A program made the translations under genes and the position numbers. DNA of 64,000 nt from Thermobaculum terrenum ATCC BAA-798 (GTDB lineage Bacteria > Chloroflexota > Chloroflexia > Thermobaculales > Thermobaculaceae), in contig NC_013525.1 of assembly GCF_000025005.1 (NCBI RefSeq), positions 1 through 64,000 of the forward strand, written 5' to 3'. Below the pieces are notes generated by a model that did no database searches, had not been told where the DNA came from, and saw only the letters and a list, made by a program, of their open reading frames with translations. Position 1 is the first letter of the stretch; each line of letters opens with the position of its first letter. This document shows, piece after piece, positions 3,312-54,816 of this stretch.

Positions 3312-3796
3312 GTTTGAGATCTCTTCAGCTTTTCTAGGTACGGTTCCACTTCCTTAGGTACAAGTCCTTCTACGGAACCTCCAAGTATGGACACTTCCTT
3401 GACCAGGCTTGATGAGAGAAAGGAGTACTGCGTGCTGGTAGTAAGAAATACCGTCTCTATCTCAGGACACAACCTCCTGTTCATAAGCACCTGTTGCATC
3501 TCATAATCAAAGTCGGCCACTGCCCGTAACCCCCGAATTATTGCCTTAGCACCTATGGACTTAGCATAATCTACTAGCAACCCATCGAAGCTATCTACTT
3601 CCACATTTGGTATGTGGGCTGTAACCCTACGAAGCATGTCGAGCCTATCTTCCAAGCTAAAGGCAGCTGGTTTCCTTGGATTTACCCCAACAGCTACAAC
3701 AAGCTTCTTAAAAAGGGGACTAGCTCGCTCTATCAAGTCCAGATGACCATTAGTAACGGGGTCAAAAGAGCCTGCATATACAGCTATAGCCTCCAA
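3308..3796 (-). CDS. coaD: Phosphopantetheine adenylyltransferase
   Basis: CoaD catalyses the penultimate step of coenzyme A synthesis, adenylating 4'-phosphopantetheine to dephospho-CoA. The product is 162 residues, the usual family length. It opens with the nucleotidyltransferase signature GSFDPVTNGH, whose TxGH motif is at about 15-18, and ends with the conserved SSSLVKEV region. The start is a TTG at 3796-3794, preceded by AGGAGGGGG on the minus strand. The reading frame stays open about 200 bases further upstream, but that extension resembles nothing and would run into the divergent enoyl-CoA hydratase promoter region. Its product, CoA, is the currency of the neighbouring acyl-CoA gene. 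Confidence 0.95.
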   Translation of the reverse strand: MEAIAVYAGSFDPVTNGHLDLIERASPLFKKLVVAVGVNPRKPAAFSLEDRLDMLRRVTAHIPNVEVDSFDGLLVDYAKSIGAKAIIRGLRAVADFDYEMQQVLMNRRLCPEIETVFLTTSTQYSFLSSSLVKEVSILGGSVEGLVPKEVEPYLEKLKRSQT

Positions 3797-44989: not shown

Positions 44990-45175
44990 AAATCCAACCC
45001 CTACTCAAACACCAACAAGAGTGAAAATAAAATATGTTACTTTATAAGACAAACCAATAATAAATATTTGTTGACTAATTGGGTACTTCCGCTTGAAAGC
45101 TATGGTTATACCAGTAGTTAAAACTACATGAATAACAGGAAGTTACGATGCAATGAAGCAAGATTTATTCCAAAA

Positions 45176-46183
45176 TTATGCATCTACGACTAAGTCAAGA
45201 TTAGGATCAACATCTAGATCTAACTGGTCCGTCTTGCCTCGAATGTACCTATAGTAGGCCAATCCCCCTATCATCGCAGCGTTATCCGTACAGTACTCAA
45301 ACTTGGGAACACGCACCTTTTCCCCAAGCTCCTGCTTTATCCTCTCCCTCAGCCTTGTGTTGGCCGCTACACCGCCGGCTATGACTACCTCCTTTGCAGC
45401 GGTCTGCTCGGCTGCAGCTACAGTTTTGCGAACGAGTATATCAACTACTGACTCCTGGAACCCATTAGCCAAAGCATACACATCTACATTCTCAGAAGAC
45501 TCAACGGCCCTTAGCAGGGCTGTTTTCAGACCGCTAAAGCTGAAGTTAAAAGTTCCCGGTAACTCTGCTCTCGGTAATACAAACTCTCTTCCCTCTGCTT
45601 TCTCAGCCGCCTTCTGAATTGCTGGCCCTCCTGGAAATCCTAGGCCCAAAATCCTTGCGGCTTTATCAAAGGCTTCACCTGCAGCGTCATCAAGAGTGCG
45701 TCCTAGCCTTTCATAGACTCCATGATCCTTCATTAGGATGAGTTCCGTATGTCCACCCGACACTATAAGAGCAAGCAGTGGAAATTGTGGTATATGTCGA
45801 GGAGCGTTGGGATCTTCCTGCAACCAGTTGGCGTATATATGCCCTTCTATATGGTTGGAGCCTATAAGAGGCAAATCTCTAGCCCAGGCTATACCCTTAG
45901 CCGTGTTAACACCAACCAGTAAGGACCCCACTAATCCTGGTCCCTTAGTTACTGCTATTGCATCTATATCTTCCCATCCTACTTGAGCTTTAGATAAAGA
46001 CTCCTCTATGGTAGGCAGTATTGCTAATACGTGCTGCCTACTAGCAACCTCTGGGAAAACCCCCCCAAAGCGACGGTGTATATCTATCTGAGAAGCCACT
46101 ATGTTTGACTTGACTAAGTAACCATCCGCAATTACCGCCGCGCTAGTCTCATCACAACTTGTCTCTATAGCCAATATGTTCAT
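45176..46183 (-). CDS. tsaD: tRNA N6-adenosine threonylcarbamoyltransferase TsaD
   Basis: TsaD transfers the threonylcarbamoyl group to A37 of ANN-decoding tRNAs (t6A), with TsaB and TsaE. The 335-residue ASKHA-fold protein has the N-terminal ETSCDETSAA. The metal ligands His111 and His115 are in HIEGH. FSGLKTAL and GGVAANTRLRE complete the signature. AAGGAGG lies four bases ahead of the ATG. It is last in the minus-strand series tsaE-tsaB-rimI-tsaD, 22 bases after rimI. Confidence 0.97.
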   Translation of the reverse strand: MNILAIETSCDETSAAVIADGYLVKSNIVASQIDIHRRFGGVFPEVASRQHVLAILPTIEESLSKAQVGWEDIDAIAVTKGPGLVGSLLVGVNTAKGIAWARDLPLIGSNHIEGHIYANWLQEDPNAPRHIPQFPLLALIVSGGHTELILMKDHGVYERLGRTLDDAAGEAFDKAARILGLGFPGGPAIQKAAEKAEGREFVLPRAELPGTFNFSFSGLKTALLRAVESSENVDVYALANGFQESVVDILVRKTVAAAEQTAAKEVVIAGGVAANTRLRERIKQELGEKVRVPKFEYCTDNAAMIGGLAYYRYIRGKTDQLDLDVDPNLDLVVDA

Positions 46184-46205
46184 GGTACCTCCTTATCTGA
46201 AAGAG

Positions 46206-46901
46206 CTAAGGAGACTCCCTATCTACATGCTCTATATGCTCTCCAACATGTCTATGGGAGGCATCTTCCATAGAATCATCCTCCAATAGCAGCTGTCCAT
46301 TCAGCTTTTCAAAAAGCTCGCGCTTGAGACTTTCAAACTTATTGGCAAACTCATCTGTATCTATACGGTCCGACCACATTACAAGAGCATCTTCCCCATT
46401 GTCGCTGTAATAGCGCCTTCTGTAGCCAGCATTTTTGAAGGTGTACTTGCGATACAGGGTCTGAGCTACGTGATTCGAAACCCTGGCCTCAAGAGTCATC
46501 CTATGAACACCATTCTTCCTAGCATAGTCTATAAGACTAACTAACAATAGCTCACCTAATTTCTTTCCTCTGAACTGGGGAAGAACGGCTATAGTCGTCA
46601 CGTGCGCCTCCTCCCCAATGATCCAAAGCCCCGCGTACCCAATAATGGGATTGGGATTAGGCTCTAACTTCTCATCCTTTAGAAAAGGCAGGATATTCGC
46701 TAGTACACCATGCCTGCTCATATCCTTGTCCTTAAGGGGCCCTTCTCCGACTCTGCGAAGCACTATGTAATAATTCCTATCCGGGTGCTCTATCTCTCTT
46801 CTGTAAGCACTAGGAGGCCAGGGAGTTGAAAAAGATATACGATCTATTTCAGCCACTTCAGGGATATCTTCAACCTTCATGCGCTCGATTTTGAAGGGCA
46901 T
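46206..46901 (-). CDS. rimI: RimI-like GNAT acetyltransferase with insertion and tail
   Basis: Position between tsaB and tsaD points to RimI, which acetylates the N-terminus of ribosomal protein S18, although many such genes act on other proteins. The 231 residues exceed the usual 150. A GNAT core holds the acetyl-CoA loop VLPQFRGKKLGELLL at about 118-132 and LYRKYTFKNAGYR. It has an insertion of roughly 40 residues at about 52-90 and an acidic, histidine-bearing tail from about 180. Both extras look unstructured. The ribosome site is modest. Confidence 0.8.
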   Translation of the reverse strand: MPFKIERMKVEDIPEVAEIDRISFSTPWPPSAYRREIEHPDRNYYIVLRRVGEGPLKDKDMSRHGVLANILPFLKDEKLEPNPNPIIGYAGLWIIGEEAHVTTIAVLPQFRGKKLGELLLVSLIDYARKNGVHRMTLEARVSNHVAQTLYRKYTFKNAGYRRRYYSDNGEDALVMWSDRIDTDEFANKFESLKRELFEKLNGQLLLEDDSMEDASHRHVGEHIEHVDRESP

Positions 46902-46947
46902 AGCTCTACAACCTTTGCCTTTTCTTTGCTGTCATACTTGTAGAACC

Positions 46948-47622
46948 CTACTTACGATCAAGATATTCCGCTTGTAAAGTGGCCGGATTATCCACAGACC
47001 CCAATCTAAATCTCTGCCAGGCGATCTCAGCAAGGACTGCCAGACGCCTGCTAGACTCTGCTGGGGATAGCAACAAATACCTAGTACTATCTTTCAGATT
47101 CTCCTTCAACTCAACTGGAATATCCCCACACAGTAGAACCCTATCGTAAGGCAGAGAATCTAATTCGTTAGCTAGCTCCTGCAAGGATAAACTCCTGCAC
47201 CATTGTAAGCTAAGGTTTCCCCCATCTTCAGATGCATAAAGCGCAGCAGCCAGCCTACCTCTACCTAGCACAAGACAGGCCACAATATGCTTACAGAAGT
47301 ACCTGTAGGGCCATGCGGCGTAGAGGAGAGTAGGCACGCCTATGATGGGTACACCTAGAGCCTTACATATGCCCTTAGCGGTTGCCATGCCCACCCTCAT
47401 GGCAGTGAACGACCCCGGACCAGTAGTTACAGCAACCGCAGATATGCTCTCCTTGGAGAGCCTCAATTGCTTGAAGGCGTAATCTAGCCAAGGCATAAGT
47501 TGAACAGTATGCGACCTGCCCGAATCCCAGGATAAATCAAGCAAATTCTCACCGTTGCGGTTAATAGCCAATCCACATCTACGATCAGAAGTATCCAGAG
47601 CAAGTATTAGATCCTTTGCCAA
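46948..47622 (-). CDS. tsaB: tRNA threonylcarbamoyladenosine biosynthesis protein TsaB
   Basis: TsaB is the inactive ASKHA partner that holds TsaD and TsaE in the t6A complex. It has 224 residues. LALDTS at the N-terminus and TTGPGSFTAMRVGMATAKG are the standard marks, and the metal-site histidines of TsaD are absent. The start is TTG at 47622, with AAGGAG upstream inside the tsaE end. The tsaE stop codon is directly adjacent, so translation is probably coupled. Confidence 0.94.
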   Translation of the reverse strand: MAKDLILALDTSDRRCGLAINRNGENLLDLSWDSGRSHTVQLMPWLDYAFKQLRLSKESISAVAVTTGPGSFTAMRVGMATAKGICKALGVPIIGVPTLLYAAWPYRYFCKHIVACLVLGRGRLAAALYASEDGGNLSLQWCRSLSLQELANELDSLPYDRVLLCGDIPVELKENLKDSTRYLLLSPAESSRRLAVLAEIAWQRFRLGSVDNPATLQAEYLDRK

Positions 47623-48147
47623 CTAACTCTCCTTATCAAAGGCAACTTTATCCTGCCTGAGTTTATCTTCCAGGGCAGTTAGCAGCGTCAAGAACCTTTT
47701 ACCACTAGCAGCAAGCGTTATCCTGCGGTTGTTTTCATCAATCCATTCAAAGTTTACATCTAATTTCTCTGGAGGCAACAAATCCTTTATGACCTCAGGC
47801 CATTCTACAAGAGCAACGCCTTCATCCATTATGAGCTCATCAGCTCCAAATCCTTCTGCTTCCTGCCTGCTACTTATTCTGTATAGGTCCAAGTGATAAA
47901 GGGTTATCTCCGGCCTTTTAGTACTGTGGTAGATATTCACCAGACCAAAAGACGGACTAACTACAGCCTCTCGTACTCCGAGCCCCTCTGCCAAGCCCTG
48001 AGTAAAAGTGGTCTTTCCCACTCCGAAACCACCCCATAGTGGTATCACATCGCCAGGCTGCACTAGCTGTGCTAGAGTTCTACCTAAGTCTTTCGTCTCT
48101 TCGGCGTTATGAGTCAGTAGTACAAGCCTATCTAACTGCTGCAGCAT
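47623..48147 (-). CDS. tsaE: tRNA threonylcarbamoyladenosine biosynthesis ATPase TsaE
   Basis: TsaE is the P-loop ATPase that resets the TsaBD complex in t6A synthesis. It has 174 residues. Walker A GGFGVGKTTF is at about 39-48, SPSFGLVNIY is the switch-like segment, and HLDLYR and VEWPE complete the family pattern. The C-terminal 25 residues extend beyond the usual 150. It leads the minus-strand series and is divergent from the 70-residue protein gene. Confidence 0.94.
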   Translation of the reverse strand: MLQQLDRLVLLTHNAEETKDLGRTLAQLVQPGDVIPLWGGFGVGKTTFTQGLAEGLGVREAVVSPSFGLVNIYHSTKRPEITLYHLDLYRISSRQEAEGFGADELIMDEGVALVEWPEVIKDLLPPEKLDVNFEWIDENNRRITLAASGKRFLTLLTALEDKLRQDKVAFDKES

Positions 48148-48271
48148 TAGTATCCACTCGACTTCCGCTCTAAGGTTTATAACTACGGCTAGGTTAGCCT
48201 ATCATCATAGTTAGACTATCATAAATGATAAATTACAGCTGACTACTTGATCAAACAGGAGAAGGCAAATT

Positions 48272-48484
48272 ATGAATCATAGTCCAGAAGACAGAATTCT
48301 TGAGGAAACCCTAAGTAAACAGAAGGAACTGATTGAATTCTACAAAAAGGCTATAAAGCAATCCGCAGATCAAGAATGCAAAGATCTATTCAAGAGTTTG
48401 GCAAAATCACTGGACTCGGATATGACCTCAGTAGCTGAAGAGATAGCCAAGCACAGGATGGAGAGAAAGTTGAGAGAGCAATAG
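48272..48484 (+). CDS. Small charged helical protein, unknown
   Basis: This unrecognised 70-residue protein is predicted all-helical and rich in lysine and glutamate, with one cysteine (in DQECKDL). The spacing suggests a two-helix hairpin. AGGAG lies ten bases before the ATG, and codon use fits the neighbours, so the gene is probably real. It is divergent from tsaE and 62 bases ahead of nrdR on the same strand. Confidence 0.65.
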   Translation: MNHSPEDRILEETLSKQKELIEFYKKAIKQSADQECKDLFKSLAKSLDSDMTSVAEEIAKHRMERKLREQ

Positions 48485-48485
48485 G

Positions 48486-48533
48486 GCCTTTTATGTTGTA
48501 TGTGATTACAGCCTCTACTACAATATATTGTTA
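48486..48533 (+). promoter_or_regulatory. NrdR boxes upstream of nrdR
   Basis: CTACAATATATTGTTA at 48518-48533 has a perfect match to the NrdR-box core CWATATATWGT. A half-preserved copy with the right half TATGTTGTAT starts 32 bases upstream at 48486. NrdR binds pairs of boxes about three helical turns apart, so nrdR is probably autoregulated. The good box lies just before the ribosome site. Confidence 0.65.
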
Positions 48534-48546
48534 GTGGAGGATTCCT

Positions 48547-49023
48547 GTGCGTTGCCCTAAATGTGGATCTACCAGGACTAGAGTAACCGACTCTCGAGAG
48601 ACTACTAACGCGATCCGACGCAGGAGGAAGTGCGAGGATTGTGGCTACCGTTTCACGACGTACGAGAGGATAGAGCAAGTCATGCCTCTAGTTGTGAAGC
48701 GAGATGGCACTCGAGAAGAATGGGATAGAAATAAGCTACTCACAGGAATAAGACTGGCATGCAACAAAAGACCAGTATCCTACTCCACTATGCAGCAGAT
48801 AGTAGATGAAATCGAAGAACAGTTCTCCGGACGCCAGGAAGTAGACAGCTCAGAGATAGGCCAAGCTGTAATGAAAAAGCTCCGGGTGTTGGATGAGGTG
48901 GCATACATAAGATTTGCATCCGTATACCTTAGATTCCACGATGTAAACGGCTTCATCGAGGCAGTAGAACAAGTAAGACGTCCACAGAAACCACCAGAAG
49001 AACAGATCCCTATGAACATATAA
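48547..49023 (+). CDS. nrdR: Transcriptional repressor NrdR
   Basis: NrdR represses ribonucleotide reductase genes when dATP is high. It has 158 residues. A zinc ribbon uses Cys3, Cys6, Cys29 and Cys32. An ATP-cone domain (about 45-140) contains VVKRDGTREEWDRNKL and senses ATP/dATP. The start is GTG at 48547, six bases after GGAGG. It is followed by nrdJ, with paired NrdR boxes in the spacer and one strong box in front of nrdR itself. Confidence 0.96.
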   Translation: MRCPKCGSTRTRVTDSRETTNAIRRRRKCEDCGYRFTTYERIEQVMPLVVKRDGTREEWDRNKLLTGIRLACNKRPVSYSTMQQIVDEIEEQFSGRQEVDSSEIGQAVMKKLRVLDEVAYIRFASVYLRFHDVNGFIEAVEQVRRPQKPPEEQIPMNI

Positions 49024-49075
49024 AATCTTTTGCTTATATCCCTCCTGCCTGTTGCAACCAAGCACCACCAGTGAT

Positions 49076-49123
49076 ACACTATACTTAGTATTATAAACAG
49101 AGAGCCACTACTATATGTAGTAT
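49076..49123 (+). promoter_or_regulatory. Tandem NrdR boxes upstream of nrdJ
   Basis: Two 16-base palindromic boxes, ACACTATACTTAGTAT at 49076 and CTACTATATGTAGTAT at 49108, match the known NrdR-box pattern acaCwATATaTwGtgt at about 13 and 12 positions. Their starts are 32 bases apart, three helical turns, which is the usual geometry. The second ends 36 bases before the nrdJ start. Confidence 0.8.
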
Positions 49124-49159
49124 ATAGATGGCTCGGGTGGGAACAACAGGAGGGTCAAA

Positions 49160-51595
49160 TTGAGTGGGACAACATATATAGATACAAGCAGCATACACAC
49201 CATAGAGGACCTGGAGCGAGAAGTGCAGGCCCTGATCGACTCCGGTAGGGCAACGAAGCTTGAGGGCTATCGCGAGAAGATCTTTCTGGACAGGTACGCT
49301 CGTAAGGACCCTAACGGTACACCTCTGGAACATTACCCAGAGGAGATGTGGCTCAGGGTAGCTAAGGCCATAGCCGCCGTAGAGCCCAATCCAGAGGCAC
49401 AGCGACAGTGGACACTCCGCTTCTATGACATCCTGCAGGGCTTCAGGTTCGTACCAGGAGGCAGAATACTCTCCGGTGCAGGTTCCGGTGCCGAGGTTAC
49501 CTACTACAACTGCTTCGTGATTCCCTCACCAGAGGACTCAGTAGAAGGCATATTCAGGAACATAACCACCGCAGCTCATATCATGCGTCGCTCCGGGGGA
49601 GTGGGGGTAAACCTCTCGAGCCTCCGCCCGCGCGGAGCTTACATCAAGACCGTCAACGGCACCTCCAGCGGGCCATGCTCCTGGGCGATCCTGTACTCCG
49701 ACATGACGGGGAAGGTCATCATCCAGGGGGGTAGTCGTCGAGGTGCCCTGATGATCATGCTCGATGACGATCACCCCGACATCGAGGAGTTTGTGGAATA
49801 CAAGCGTAAGAACCCCGGACATATAGATCATGCCAACCTCTCAGTGGCAGTGTCCGATGCCTTCATGGAAGCGGTCAAGAAAGATCTGCCCTGGGATCTC
49901 AAGTGGCAGGGCAAGGTCTGGAAGACCATACGAGCCCGAGACCTCTGGAGGAAGATCGCGGAATCAGCGTGGGCATATGCGGAGCCTGGACTGGTATTTA
50001 TAGATCGTTATAACAAGCGTTCCAACACCTGGTACTTCGAGAACATCCGCTGTGTCAACCCGTGTGGTGAGCAGGGATTGCCTCCCTGGGGCGTCTGCAA
50101 TCTGGGGGCACTCAACCTACTGGCTTTCGTCAAACACATAGATGGAGAGACCTACTTTGACTTTGAGGATCTGGCAAATACCGCCAGGGTAGCTATTAGG
50201 TTCCTGGATAACGTCATAGATGCCACGGTATATCCCTTCCCAGAAAACGAAGAGGCGCAAAAGCATGGTGCCCGAAGGACAGGGCTGGGTACCATGGGCC
50301 TTGCAGATGTGCTAATCAAGTTGGGAGTCAAGTACGGCTCGCCTGAGGCTGAACCCCTGGTGGAGCGCATCTATCGCACGATCCGGGATGCAGCCTACGA
50401 TGCTTCCGCAGACCTTGCGGCTGAGAAGGGGCCATTTCCCAAGTTCGATCGCGACAAGTACATGCAAGGTGAGTTCATCCGCGAGCTTCCAGAGGAGATA
50501 CAGGCCAAGATCCGCAGACAAGGTATACGCAATGCCGTGCTCCTCACACAAGCTCCAACCGGTACAACCTCGTCCCTGGCGGGCGTCAACTCCGGTATAG
50601 AGCCTGTGTTCGCCTTCGTTACCAAGAGGCGAGATCGCCTGGGAGAGCACCTTCTCTACCATCCTCTGGCTCAGGAATGGATGGACGCTCATCCTGGAAA
50701 GCCTCTCCCCGACTACTTTGTCTCCTCGGCCGACCTAACCCCGGAGGAGCATATCCGCATCCAGGCCGTAGTGCAGAAGTACACAGACTCCTCCATCTCC
50801 AAGACGGTCAACGGTCCCGAGGATAACACTGTAGAGGATGTAGAGAGGCTCTACATGCTGGCCTACGACACAGGCTGCAAGGGCATCACCTACTACAGGC
50901 AAGGATCTCGAGATGCAGTCCTCGAGGCCGTGGACACCAAGCCCAAGGAGAAAGCGGAGAAACCCGAGGAAGCCCCCAAGGCCTCGCATCCAGAAGTTCA
51001 CAGATCCACACTCAAGAAGAGGCCCGATGTCGTCTCTGGTTACACCAGGCAGATACGTGCTCCAGAGGGGAAGGTGAACATCACCCTCAACTCGGATGAC
51101 GAAGGGTTGCTTGAGGTCTTTATCAACCTGGGCAAGGCAGGTTCTGATATAGCGGCCATGGCTGAGGCCCTCGGCAGGCTGATATCCTTCGCGCTACAGA
51201 TGCCGTCCCCGATGTCTCCCAACGAGCGCGCTGCCGAGATAGCCGACCAGCTAAGGGGCATAGGAGGCTCCAGATCTGTAGGTTTTGGTCCAGGTCAGGT
51301 CAAGAGCCTACCTGACGCGGTCGGGCAGGCATTGCTCAAGCACCTACAATCTGAAGGAATAGCCCTAAGCAACGGGAATGGAAACGGGCACGCGGATGTC
51401 GAGAGCAAAGAGCTAGTAGCGGTCGTAGCCCAAAATGGTAACCATGGTGAGGAGACCCCAGAGAGCATAGCTCAAAAGTTACTCGAGAAGACTTATCAGT
51501 TGACAGGTAACCTATGTCCTAGCTGTGGCTGCAATAGCCTTATAGCCCAAGAAGGTTGCAAGAAGTGTTACACTTGCGGTTACTCTGAGTGTTAG
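49160..51595 (+). CDS. nrdJ: Class II (B12-dependent) ribonucleotide reductase
   Basis: NrdJ makes deoxyribonucleotides using adenosylcobalamin. It has 811 residues and no N-terminal ATP cone. The redox cysteines lie in YYNCFVIP and WGVCNLGAL, and the radical cysteine and glutamate are in NPCGEQ. APTGTTSSLAGVNSG is the substrate-binding loop. After a lysine/glutamate-rich linker and a TSCPD-like segment, the C-terminus has CPSCGC and CKKCYTCGYSEC, a zinc-like and redox tail. It starts with TTG, six bases after AGGAGG. The core has visibly higher GC than all neighbours. Confidence 0.96.
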   Translation: MSGTTYIDTSSIHTIEDLEREVQALIDSGRATKLEGYREKIFLDRYARKDPNGTPLEHYPEEMWLRVAKAIAAVEPNPEAQRQWTLRFYDILQGFRFVPGGRILSGAGSGAEVTYYNCFVIPSPEDSVEGIFRNITTAAHIMRRSGGVGVNLSSLRPRGAYIKTVNGTSSGPCSWAILYSDMTGKVIIQGGSRRGALMIMLDDDHPDIEEFVEYKRKNPGHIDHANLSVAVSDAFMEAVKKDLPWDLKWQGKVWKTIRARDLWRKIAESAWAYAEPGLVFIDRYNKRSNTWYFENIRCVNPCGEQGLPPWGVCNLGALNLLAFVKHIDGETYFDFEDLANTARVAIRFLDNVIDATVYPFPENEEAQKHGARRTGLGTMGLADVLIKLGVKYGSPEAEPLVERIYRTIRDAAYDASADLAAEKGPFPKFDRDKYMQGEFIRELPEEIQAKIRRQGIRNAVLLTQAPTGTTSSLAGVNSGIEPVFAFVTKRRDRLGEHLLYHPLAQEWMDAHPGKPLPDYFVSSADLTPEEHIRIQAVVQKYTDSSISKTVNGPEDNTVEDVERLYMLAYDTGCKGITYYRQGSRDAVLEAVDTKPKEKAEKPEEAPKASHPEVHRSTLKKRPDVVSGYTRQIRAPEGKVNITLNSDDEGLLEVFINLGKAGSDIAAMAEALGRLISFALQMPSPMSPNERAAEIADQLRGIGGSRSVGFGPGQVKSLPDAVGQALLKHLQSEGIALSNGNGNGHADVESKELVAVVAQNGNHGEETPESIAQKLLEKTYQLTGNLCPSCGCNSLIAQEGCKKCYTCGYSEC

Positions 51596-51610
51596 TTAGA
51601 TGGGTCCTAA

Positions 51611-51641
51611 TTTTGGGAGGAGCAATTAGCTCCTCCCAAAA
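51611..51641. terminator. Bidirectional terminator between nrdJ and the K+ channel gene
   Basis: Thirteen-base perfect arms, the left one TTTTGGGAGGAGC, enclose a five-base loop. The flanking T and A runs give both strands a U-tract. It ends directly at the channel gene stop codon. Confidence 0.85.
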
Positions 51642-52760
51642 CTATTTCTTCAATGGGTGAGCAGCCAGCTCTAATTTACTCTCCACTTCGCTTGTAGTGT
51701 ATCCAGAATGTTCTCTGTACGCATTTATATATGGATCTACGCTTAGTCTAAATCGAACATACTCTTCCTCTGCACCATCATCTGCAGAAAGTACCAGACC
51801 GAGATCATGTAACCTATGTCTCAATGATCTATAGTCCTTTCTCAGATACTCTCTTACTTCTTCTTCAGAGTATTCTGATTGCCTAGAGGCTACATACACG
51901 GACTCAGCAAACATAGCTAACGCATATGTAAACGAATCTTCCAGTACCAATATTCTAGGGTCATTCCAGGGTTGCCCAACCTTCCTCGATTGGTCATACA
52001 AACCAAAGCGCAAGGCGGTTATGATTCCTCTTATTATGAGGAGCACTCTAACTAAGCTTCTATCAGGCTCGAAAGGGTGAGCATAATATAAAGCACTATG
52101 TACTCTATGAGCTTCAATTACTTCTAGTAGATCCTTATTGATGTCCGCGATTCTTGTGTACAAAGCTTCAAGATTGCCCGCGTCTATGTATCTAGCAATC
52201 ATAGGAACAGCTGATATATCTCCATCAACTTCCCTGTTGAGGGCTGAAGCAAGGCTACTCTTCTTGAGTAAGCTGGGATACACAGATAATAGAAAGGTAA
52301 CGGACATAGTAATTACAACAAATCCGCTGAAACCTTCTGTGACTGCTACGAAACCCAACAGCGTAGAACGTGGATGAATATCCCCATAGCCTATTGTCGC
52401 CAGTGTGACACCACTGAAATATAAAGCTCCCCCAAAACCCTGATGATACTGAGTTTGAGAGAAATAAGCATCGTTAGAAATAAAAGGCCAGTATATAAGG
52501 GAATAGCCCACTACAAGAAGACACACCCAAATCCCAATCAATCCAGCAATCATCAGAGGGAAACCCCATGAAAGCACGTGATGCCTAGCTCTTCCTGGGA
52601 GTGGAGATGCAATCGCTCTTAGCAGAGACCACAAAGATCTTGTAAACAACCACTCTATTAGACTACGCCCCTGTATATGCAGCACAGTGAGAACTATATC
52701 TGTTATTGCAAGCAAGATGATACAAACACCTAAAACAATGCTAAAGACTTCCATAAGCAT
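51642..52760 (-). CDS. Ion-channel protein with potassium selectivity filter
   Basis: This 372-residue inner-membrane protein has two helices (about 3-28 and 68-92), then a pore region with the filter TIGYGD at 122-127 and a further helix at about 135-160. The C-terminal 200 residues are soluble and mostly helical, without an RCK/TrkA Rossmann motif, so the gating ligand is unknown. It is probably a two-helix K+ channel of the Ion_trans_2 family. It is convergent with nrdJ. There is no ribosome site before the ATG. Confidence 0.82.
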   Translation of the reverse strand: MLMEVFSIVLGVCIILLAITDIVLTVLHIQGRSLIEWLFTRSLWSLLRAIASPLPGRARHHVLSWGFPLMIAGLIGIWVCLLVVGYSLIYWPFISNDAYFSQTQYHQGFGGALYFSGVTLATIGYGDIHPRSTLLGFVAVTEGFSGFVVITMSVTFLLSVYPSLLKKSSLASALNREVDGDISAVPMIARYIDAGNLEALYTRIADINKDLLEVIEAHRVHSALYYAHPFEPDRSLVRVLLIIRGIITALRFGLYDQSRKVGQPWNDPRILVLEDSFTYALAMFAESVYVASRQSEYSEEEVREYLRKDYRSLRHRLHDLGLVLSADDGAEEEYVRFRLSVDPYINAYREHSGYTTSEVESKLELAAHPLKK

Positions 52761-52810
52761 TCTAAATAATCATCAAAGTTGCATTAACAAGGAAGGCCAA
52801 TCGAGCAAGC

Positions 52811-52829
52811 TTATCATTAAATATGATAA
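52811..52829. promoter_or_regulatory. Dyad overlapping a -10-like element before gyrB
   Basis: TTATCAT and ATGATAA arms surround a five-base spacer. TATGAT within it (52822-52827) would serve as a -10 hexamer, but no good -35 is seen. A similar TATCAT/ATGATA pair with a two-base spacer lies at 48217-48230, ahead of the 70-residue protein gene. Function is unproven. Confidence 0.35.
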
Positions 52830-52848
52830 AATCTAAGGTAGTACCTAG

Positions 52849-54816
<1,968 letters not shown>

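Follow-up and report, generated by a model that had tools for sequence, protein, structure and literature searches.

Predicted NrdR operator before the class II ribonucleotide reductase gene nrdJ and an operator-like site before nrdR in Thermobaculum terrenum

The stretch of DNA analyzed here (the window) is 64,000 nucleotides long and forms positions 1 to 64,000 of NC_013525.1 from Thermobaculum terrenum ATCC BAA-798. The genome comprises 3,101,581 bases; of its two contigs, the second has 1,074,634 bases. As shown in Table 1, nrdR is followed in the window by nrdJ, the gene for a ribonucleotide reductase (RNR). The two genes are on the same strand, and the nrdR stop is separated from the nrdJ start by 136 bp. 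A preliminary description of this DNA had placed NrdR boxes at 48486, 48518, 49076 and 49108, and all four are present at these positions. They form one pair before nrdR and one pair before nrdJ. In both pairs the boxes are 32 bases apart from start to start, which corresponds to 16-bp boxes and a 16-bp spacer.

Table 1 Features of the nrdR–nrdJ locus (window coordinates) and of the nrdAB locus (L007 coordinates) of T. terrenum. PWM, score with the matrix from E. coli boxes.
Feature	Position	Strand	Description
Small gene, 70 aa	48272..48484	+	no family match; ends just 5′ of the nrdR site
nrdR site, distal (upstream) box, degenerate	48486..48501		GCCTTTTATGTTGTAT; PWM 6.6 bits, rank 60
nrdR site, proximal NrdR box	48518..48533		CTACAATATATTGTTA; PWM 12.4 bits, rank 4 in window
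nrdR	48547..49023	+	repressor NrdR, 158 aa, GTG start, Zn-ribbon and ATP-cone
Predicted nrdJ operator, distal NrdR box	49076..49091		ACACTATACTTAGTAT; PWM 12.7 bits, rank 3 in window
Predicted nrdJ operator, proximal NrdR box	49108..49123		CTACTATATGTAGTAT; PWM 18.5 bits, best single site in window
nrdJ	49160..51595	+	adenosylcobalamin-dependent (class II) RNR, 811 aa, TTG start
nrdA NrdR box pair	L007 3070-3117, contig 2		32-base spacing, 26.0 bits
nrdAB cobalamin riboswitch	L007 3108-3301		120.8 bits; one of two matches in the genome

The product of nrdR is a member of the NrdR family. It matches TIGR00244 over its full length with 174 bits (curated cut-off, 124.65), and this is the single TIGR00244 match in the T. 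terrenum genome. PF22811 (Zn-ribbon) was found at residues 1–40 and PF03477 (ATP-cone) at residues 48–132, and the protein aligns from residue 1 to the solved NrdR chains 9fvr, 9fzf, 9fxk, 9gex and 7p37. C3, C6, C29, C32, R12, D15, S16, R17 and R24–R27 (RRRR) are invariant in the five aligned members of the order, including T. terrenum. T. terrenum NrdR thus carries the zinc motifs (two CxxC) and the D15, R17 and RRRR of the DNA-contact face by which membership was judged. According to PMC9110341, the CxxC motifs, R12, D15, R17 and RRRR are tied to zinc or DNA binding. Separately, we observed that the Zn-ribbon loop between DSR and RRRR (window 48589–48627, residues 15–27) has 6 residues in all seven members of the order, two fewer than in E. 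coli NrdR, and 8 residues in all 70 other NrdR proteins of the class that were sampled. The short loop was considered as a mark of the self-operator and rejected because it is not unique: at least 4 of the 72 parsed loci of other groups also have 6 residues (8 of 80 loci fell outside the pattern).

The product of nrdJ matches TIGR02504 (NrdJ_Z) with 583.6 bits (curated cut-off, 399.95), contains PF02867, PF00317 and PF12637, and is a class II RNR. A search for the ATP-cone PF03477 in nrdJ gave no match at E values up to 0.001, whereas nrdA, the class I gene described below, has an ATP-cone match. Because nrdJ is without this match, transcription may be the chief level of dATP feedback for nrdJ.

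The boxes were scored with a symmetric matrix of 16 positions, which was built only from six published E. coli boxes (the oligonucleotides of PMC12176259). A second matrix was built from 10 boxes that precede nrdJ or nrdA in relatives; these boxes were chosen for good scores with the E. coli matrix, and therefore the two matrices are not fully independent. Among all pairs in the window with spacings of 30–33 or 40–43 bases, the nrdJ pair ranks first (31.2 bits) and the nrdR pair ranks second (18.9 bits) with the E. coli matrix. Such a scan, together with a comparison with shuffled intergenic sequence, had been suggested as a check in the preliminary description. In this comparison, which used dinucleotide shuffles, the score of the nrdJ pair was never reached when its intergenic region was shuffled 5000 times. 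The score of the nrdR pair was reached twice in 5000 shuffles when 150 bp upstream were used and once in 5000 when 300 bp upstream were used. The two boxes before nrdJ had been called good, and their ranks as single sites (third and first) bear this out; with the matrix from relatives, the distal box ranks second in the window. When whole windows were shuffled, 31.2 bits was reached by the best pair in none of 200. Thus, the nrdJ pair stands by itself against chance. The best pair reached the score of the nrdR pair in 31 of the 200 shuffled windows, which is not significant for a blind scan; the significance of this pair depends entirely on the search having been directed at the sequence immediately 5′ of nrdR.

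We also searched with sequence patterns. A 13-base consensus with up to three mismatches has 47 matches in the window, below the shuffle mean of 63.5, and the single-box scan was dropped as evidence because it gave no excess over shuffles. The published regular expression for box pairs fits neither the nrdR pair nor the nrdJ pair, and at the 32-base spacing it has 26 matches in the whole genome and 26 in the reversed control. It was dropped for a palindromic mismatch pattern and the matrix, with nrdA as its only meaningful match. CWATATRTWG, repeated at the 32-base spacing with up to two mismatches, occurs at three places in 3.1 Mb, namely at nrdA, nrdR and nrdJ; its half-site equals the E. 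coli box consensus, but the sites were already known when the pattern was chosen. At three mismatches there are eight further places, on a par with the reversed control (3 forward, 5 reverse); six of the eight lie inside ORFs of at least 80 amino acids. The genome-wide pair scan covered the 32- and 31-base spacings, and spacings of 30, 33 and 40–43 bases were scanned in the studied loci. The 31-base version of the pattern has one place, C1:1289280–1289320, where there are only short ORFs and one of the boxes is without the conserved G; we took this pair as chance. The idea that the studied sites themselves are chance AT-rich palindromes without a regulatory role would agree with the lack of excess of single boxes and with the frequency of pairs equal to the nrdR pair in shuffled windows. 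However, we consider it extremely improbable, given the shuffles at nrdJ, the position of the three best pair matches of the genome, all of which precede nrdR or RNR genes, and the conservation at fixed positions across the order (see below).

The two sites differ in quality. Both boxes of the nrdJ pair have C4 and G13, the spacer is 16 bp and an RNR gene follows, and these are the features of an operator. In the nrdR pair, the spacer is also 16 bp and the proximal box has C4 and G13, but in the upstream box, which keeps G13, the conserved C4 is replaced by T. Therefore, we describe the site before nrdR as NrdR-operator-like and not as a full operator. The word "half-preserved", which had been used for this upstream box, is accurate, and its partner is a strong box as had been stated. 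A score of 6.6 bits is reached at 0.094% of window positions, and the chance of finding a partner as good as the upstream box in the 16 allowed positions is about 1.5%. The only promoter match at the nrdR pair is weak (9 of 12) and ends inside the upstream box.

Relatives were compared in a sample of seven genomes of the order, including T. terrenum; these represent five genera and are not independent. An NrdR match is present in all seven, and six pass the cut-off (that of G002 is cut by a contig end). In all seven, the highest-scoring pair within 300 bp 5′ of nrdR starts 56–61 bp before the start codon, with scores of 12.6–25.3, and the second matrix picks the identical pairs. The position of the upstream box in T. 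terrenum matches that of the distal box in the six relatives, where C4 and G13 are kept in both boxes. These six also have a TATAAT at a constant offset between the boxes, which T. terrenum lacks. With both matrices, the proximal box outscores the upstream box in 7/7 genomes. A pair before nrdJ, with 25.9–31.2 bits, was found in all five loci that hold the nrdR–nrdJ junction (the loci of G002 and G003 do not contain it and are outside this count); there, the upstream box is weaker in three loci and stronger in two. The identical 32-base spacing that had been claimed holds within T. terrenum, for nrdR, nrdJ and also nrdA, and does not extend to the nrdR pairs of the six relatives, which are all at 31. 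The nrdJ pairs of four relatives are at 31 in three and at 32 in one.

From these results, NrdR in all likelihood represses nrdJ through the predicted operator at 49076–49123. The repression of the class II reductase, which had been predicted in the preliminary description, is strongly supported at the level of sequence by the quality of the boxes, their spacing, the nrdJ pairs in 5/5 loci of the order and the zinc and DNA-contact residues of NrdR. Autoregulation, the other prediction, has a divided outcome. For the order of Thermobaculum it is likely, as the pair before nrdR in 7/7 genomes suggests. For T. terrenum itself it is doubtful, and may be weak or lost, because the upstream box has lost C4 and NrdR needs two good boxes (PMC12051234).

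One alternative follows from this: the operators of nrdJ and nrdAB are real, and the T. terrenum nrdR pair is a decayed relic, with autoregulation kept only in other members of the order. Among the seven genomes, loss of the TATAAT and of C4 in the upstream box is confined to T. terrenum, and tight binding by E. coli NrdR requires two intact boxes, as described in PMC12051234. However, the nrdR pair is still the second pair of the window, it has kept the 32-base spacing, its score is rarely reached by upstream shuffles (2 of 5000), and its last ten bases, TATGTTGTAT, are the last ten of box 2 in the E. coli nrdDG oligonucleotide. We consider the decayed relic unlikely. Another, tentative reading, which we consider somewhat less likely than not, is that the self-operator of nrdR is built leaky throughout the order, its upstream box being the weaker one in 7/7 genomes and that of nrdJ in only three of five loci, and that NrdR would repress the reductases before itself; T. 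terrenum would then have gone furthest, with its upstream nrdR box nearly gone.

The third predicted NrdR target, which was absent from the preliminary description, is nrdA, and it is on the other chromosome than nrdR and nrdJ. The RNR barrel family has three genes in the genome: nrdJ (403 bits), the class I gene nrdA (649 bits), which is followed by nrdB (L007), and a gene for an enzyme of 616 residues (L006). The box pair before nrdA runs into the cobalamin riboswitch (L007 3070–3301, corresponding to contig 2, 797069–797300), and a promoter, TTGACA-17-TATATT (11 of 12), overlaps the predicted operator. The nrdA start is probably the ATG at 3460 of L007; a longer in-frame ORF begins at 3352. 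The pair and the riboswitch are present in all three loci of the order. In G004, the pair scores 32.9 bits and the riboswitch 108 bits, and in G005 the values are 13.7 and 88.3 bits, with the same order of parts; these two genes were taken as nrdA from their barrel-family scores alone (630 and 626 bits). The other relatives have one RNR match of the barrel family each (G001, G002 and G006) or none (G003). As a side observation, the gene for the 616-residue RNR large subunit (L006 3850–5700, contig 2) is without an ATP-cone match. No good NrdR pair was found near it, the best in the 9-kb stretch having only 8.2 bits.

At nrdJ, a promoter scan found none. An Rfam search of 45000–54000 gave no riboswitch match at or above the cut-offs, and a B12 riboswitch at nrdJ was rejected on this result. 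The 70-amino-acid gene before nrdR had no match in Pfam and NCBIfam searches at E values up to 0.001; tblastn found matches with 45–50% identity 5′ of nrdR in three of the six loci of relatives that were searched (L025, L026 and L028). Read-through from this gene into nrdR is possible. We considered that nrdR and nrdJ may form one transcript, which starts before nrdR, as in the nrdRJ unit of S. coelicolor, or before the 70-amino-acid gene. The short gap on one strand, the lack of terminator-like sites on the nrdR/nrdJ strand in 48150–49250 and the presence of the small gene before nrdR in half of the relatives' loci are consistent with this idea. In contrast, the full-strength predicted operator that nrdJ has of its own in 5/5 loci of the order suggests a promoter of its own. 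A single transcript is rather unlikely in our estimate, as is its corollary, in which the nrdJ pair would be an internal roadblock or would act on a second promoter; it is compatible with the explanation that we prefer (see below).

Outside the order, we sampled 70 of the 91 other NrdR-bearing genomes of the class (the 30 best by score and 40 picked across families). In 67 of these, no pair within 300 bp 5′ of nrdR exceeds 10.4 bits, and the remaining three (17.8–26.5) all come from one family, f6. Among RNR loci of the class, 8 of 28 have a pair of at least 18.9 bits, where the upstream stretch covered does not always reach the promoter. From named genomes, we took the best 80 nrdR loci by similarity to the NrdR of the order, among the matches listed; 14 of the 78 with enough upstream sequence have a pair of at least 12.5 bits before nrdR, and all 14 are at 31–33 bases. 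Such a putative self-operator of nrdR is widespread but patchy, in agreement with the statement in PMC9110341 that NrdR represses also "often, its own" gene. Two further observations were made. In family f6, four boxes stand before nrdR, at 217/175/134/102 bp in L097 (spacings 42-41-32), at 234/192/149/117 bp in L120 (42-43-32) and at 272/242/210/169 bp in L098 (30-32-41). These boxes have 5.6–16.5 bits, one of them lies by eye between TTGACA and the -10, and each promoter has one extra out-of-register site of 6.9–8.6 bits; in L099, also of this family, the array is not clear. Three- and four-turn spacings are thus mixed in one promoter, which is worth a closer look. Moreover, MAG contigs with archaeal titles (L168, L176 and L224; two Woesearchaeota and one Nanohalarchaeota) have box pairs at nrdR with the 32-base spacing and 31.5, 26.5 and 25.7 bits, respectively.

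The mechanism of NrdR is already well known, and T. terrenum would be a new example. The NrdR tetramer loaded with dATP and ATP is described as binding two boxes that are an integral number of turns apart and bending the DNA; tight DNA binding as a tetramer with dATP plus ATP (or ADP) is described for the proteins of S. coelicolor, E. coli, L. monocytogenes and S. pneumoniae (PMC9110341, PMC12176259 and PMC12051234). A spacer of 15–16 bp is given as the commonest in bacteria, and mutation of one box costs E. coli NrdR 530- to 1000-fold in affinity (PMC12051234). For S. coelicolor, inversion of both GC pairs of box 1 caused an approximately 50-fold loss (PMC9110341). From this, nrdJ and nrdAB of T. 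terrenum are expected to be repressed strongly, and autoregulation to be weak at most.

The closest parallel is S. coelicolor, where nrdR adjoins a class II nrdJ, paired boxes are approximately three turns apart, and NrdR has R12, D15, R17 and RRRR as in T. terrenum (PMC9110341). Both organisms have a class I operon in which NrdR boxes are combined with a cobalamin riboswitch. Reportedly, a B12 riboswitch on S. coelicolor nrdABS was the subject of work by Borovok et al. in 2006. Unlike S. coelicolor nrdRJ, T. terrenum nrdJ has its own predicted operator besides the nrdR site; moreover, nrdAB is on another chromosome and the upstream nrdR box is degenerate. The E. coli operons nrdAB, nrdHIEF and nrdDG have two 16-bp boxes with a spacer of 15–16 bp, as in T. 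terrenum; these boxes overlap the polymerase site, and the matrix derived from them finds the T. terrenum sites. However, the three E. coli operons described in PMC12176259 are of class I and III, and nrdR is not among them.

We propose that NrdR represses nrdJ and nrdAB and, weakly, its own gene, and that B12 also shuts off nrdAB; as a whole, this reading is likely. Of its parts, nrdJ and nrdAB are very probably switched off by NrdR, and its own gene is perhaps weakly repressed. When dATP is high, NrdR would be loaded with dATP and ATP and form the tetramer, whose two Zn-ribbon pairs would grip a pair of boxes separated by three helix turns. The gripped DNA would be sharply bent, and RNA polymerase would be shut out. 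Nucleotide sensing, tetramer binding and repression are assigned here by analogy with S. coelicolor, E. coli and Listeria; the sequences, spacing, conservation, rarity in the genome, gene families and riboswitch match were observed directly. By this mechanism, nrdJ would be repressed strongly and nrdR weakly, because the upstream nrdR box is poor, and owing to this weak repression the repressor would stay available while its targets are off. We infer this weak autoregulation, as well as the promoter positions at nrdR and nrdJ. Through the predicted nrdAB operator on chromosome 2, the same repressor would act there too. Because a riboswitch precedes nrdAB and no match reaches the cut-off near nrdJ, B12 should shut off nrdAB only, and nrdJ would be the working enzyme. 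Thus, B12 would silence the class I enzyme under conditions in which the B12-dependent one can function.

RegPrecise 3.0 lists NrdR for over 25 taxonomic groups and includes a collection for Chloroflexi (PMC3840689). A literature search for Thermobaculum terrenum together with ribonucleotide reductase, which left most subscription journals outside its range, found no paper. The present analysis predicts a regulon that can be tested; it concerns the synthesis of DNA precursors in a thermophile that is distant from the models studied so far. In this regulon, a single repressor has three sites that share their spacing and differ in quality, a further reductase gene has no site, and one of the operons also carries a B12 riboswitch. 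If the self-operator of nrdR is indeed leaky, the response would be tiered: nrdJ and nrdAB would be controlled tightly, nrdR loosely, and nrdAB also by B12. The weak upstream box of nrdR throughout the order may serve as a natural series to study how much of a second NrdR box cells need.
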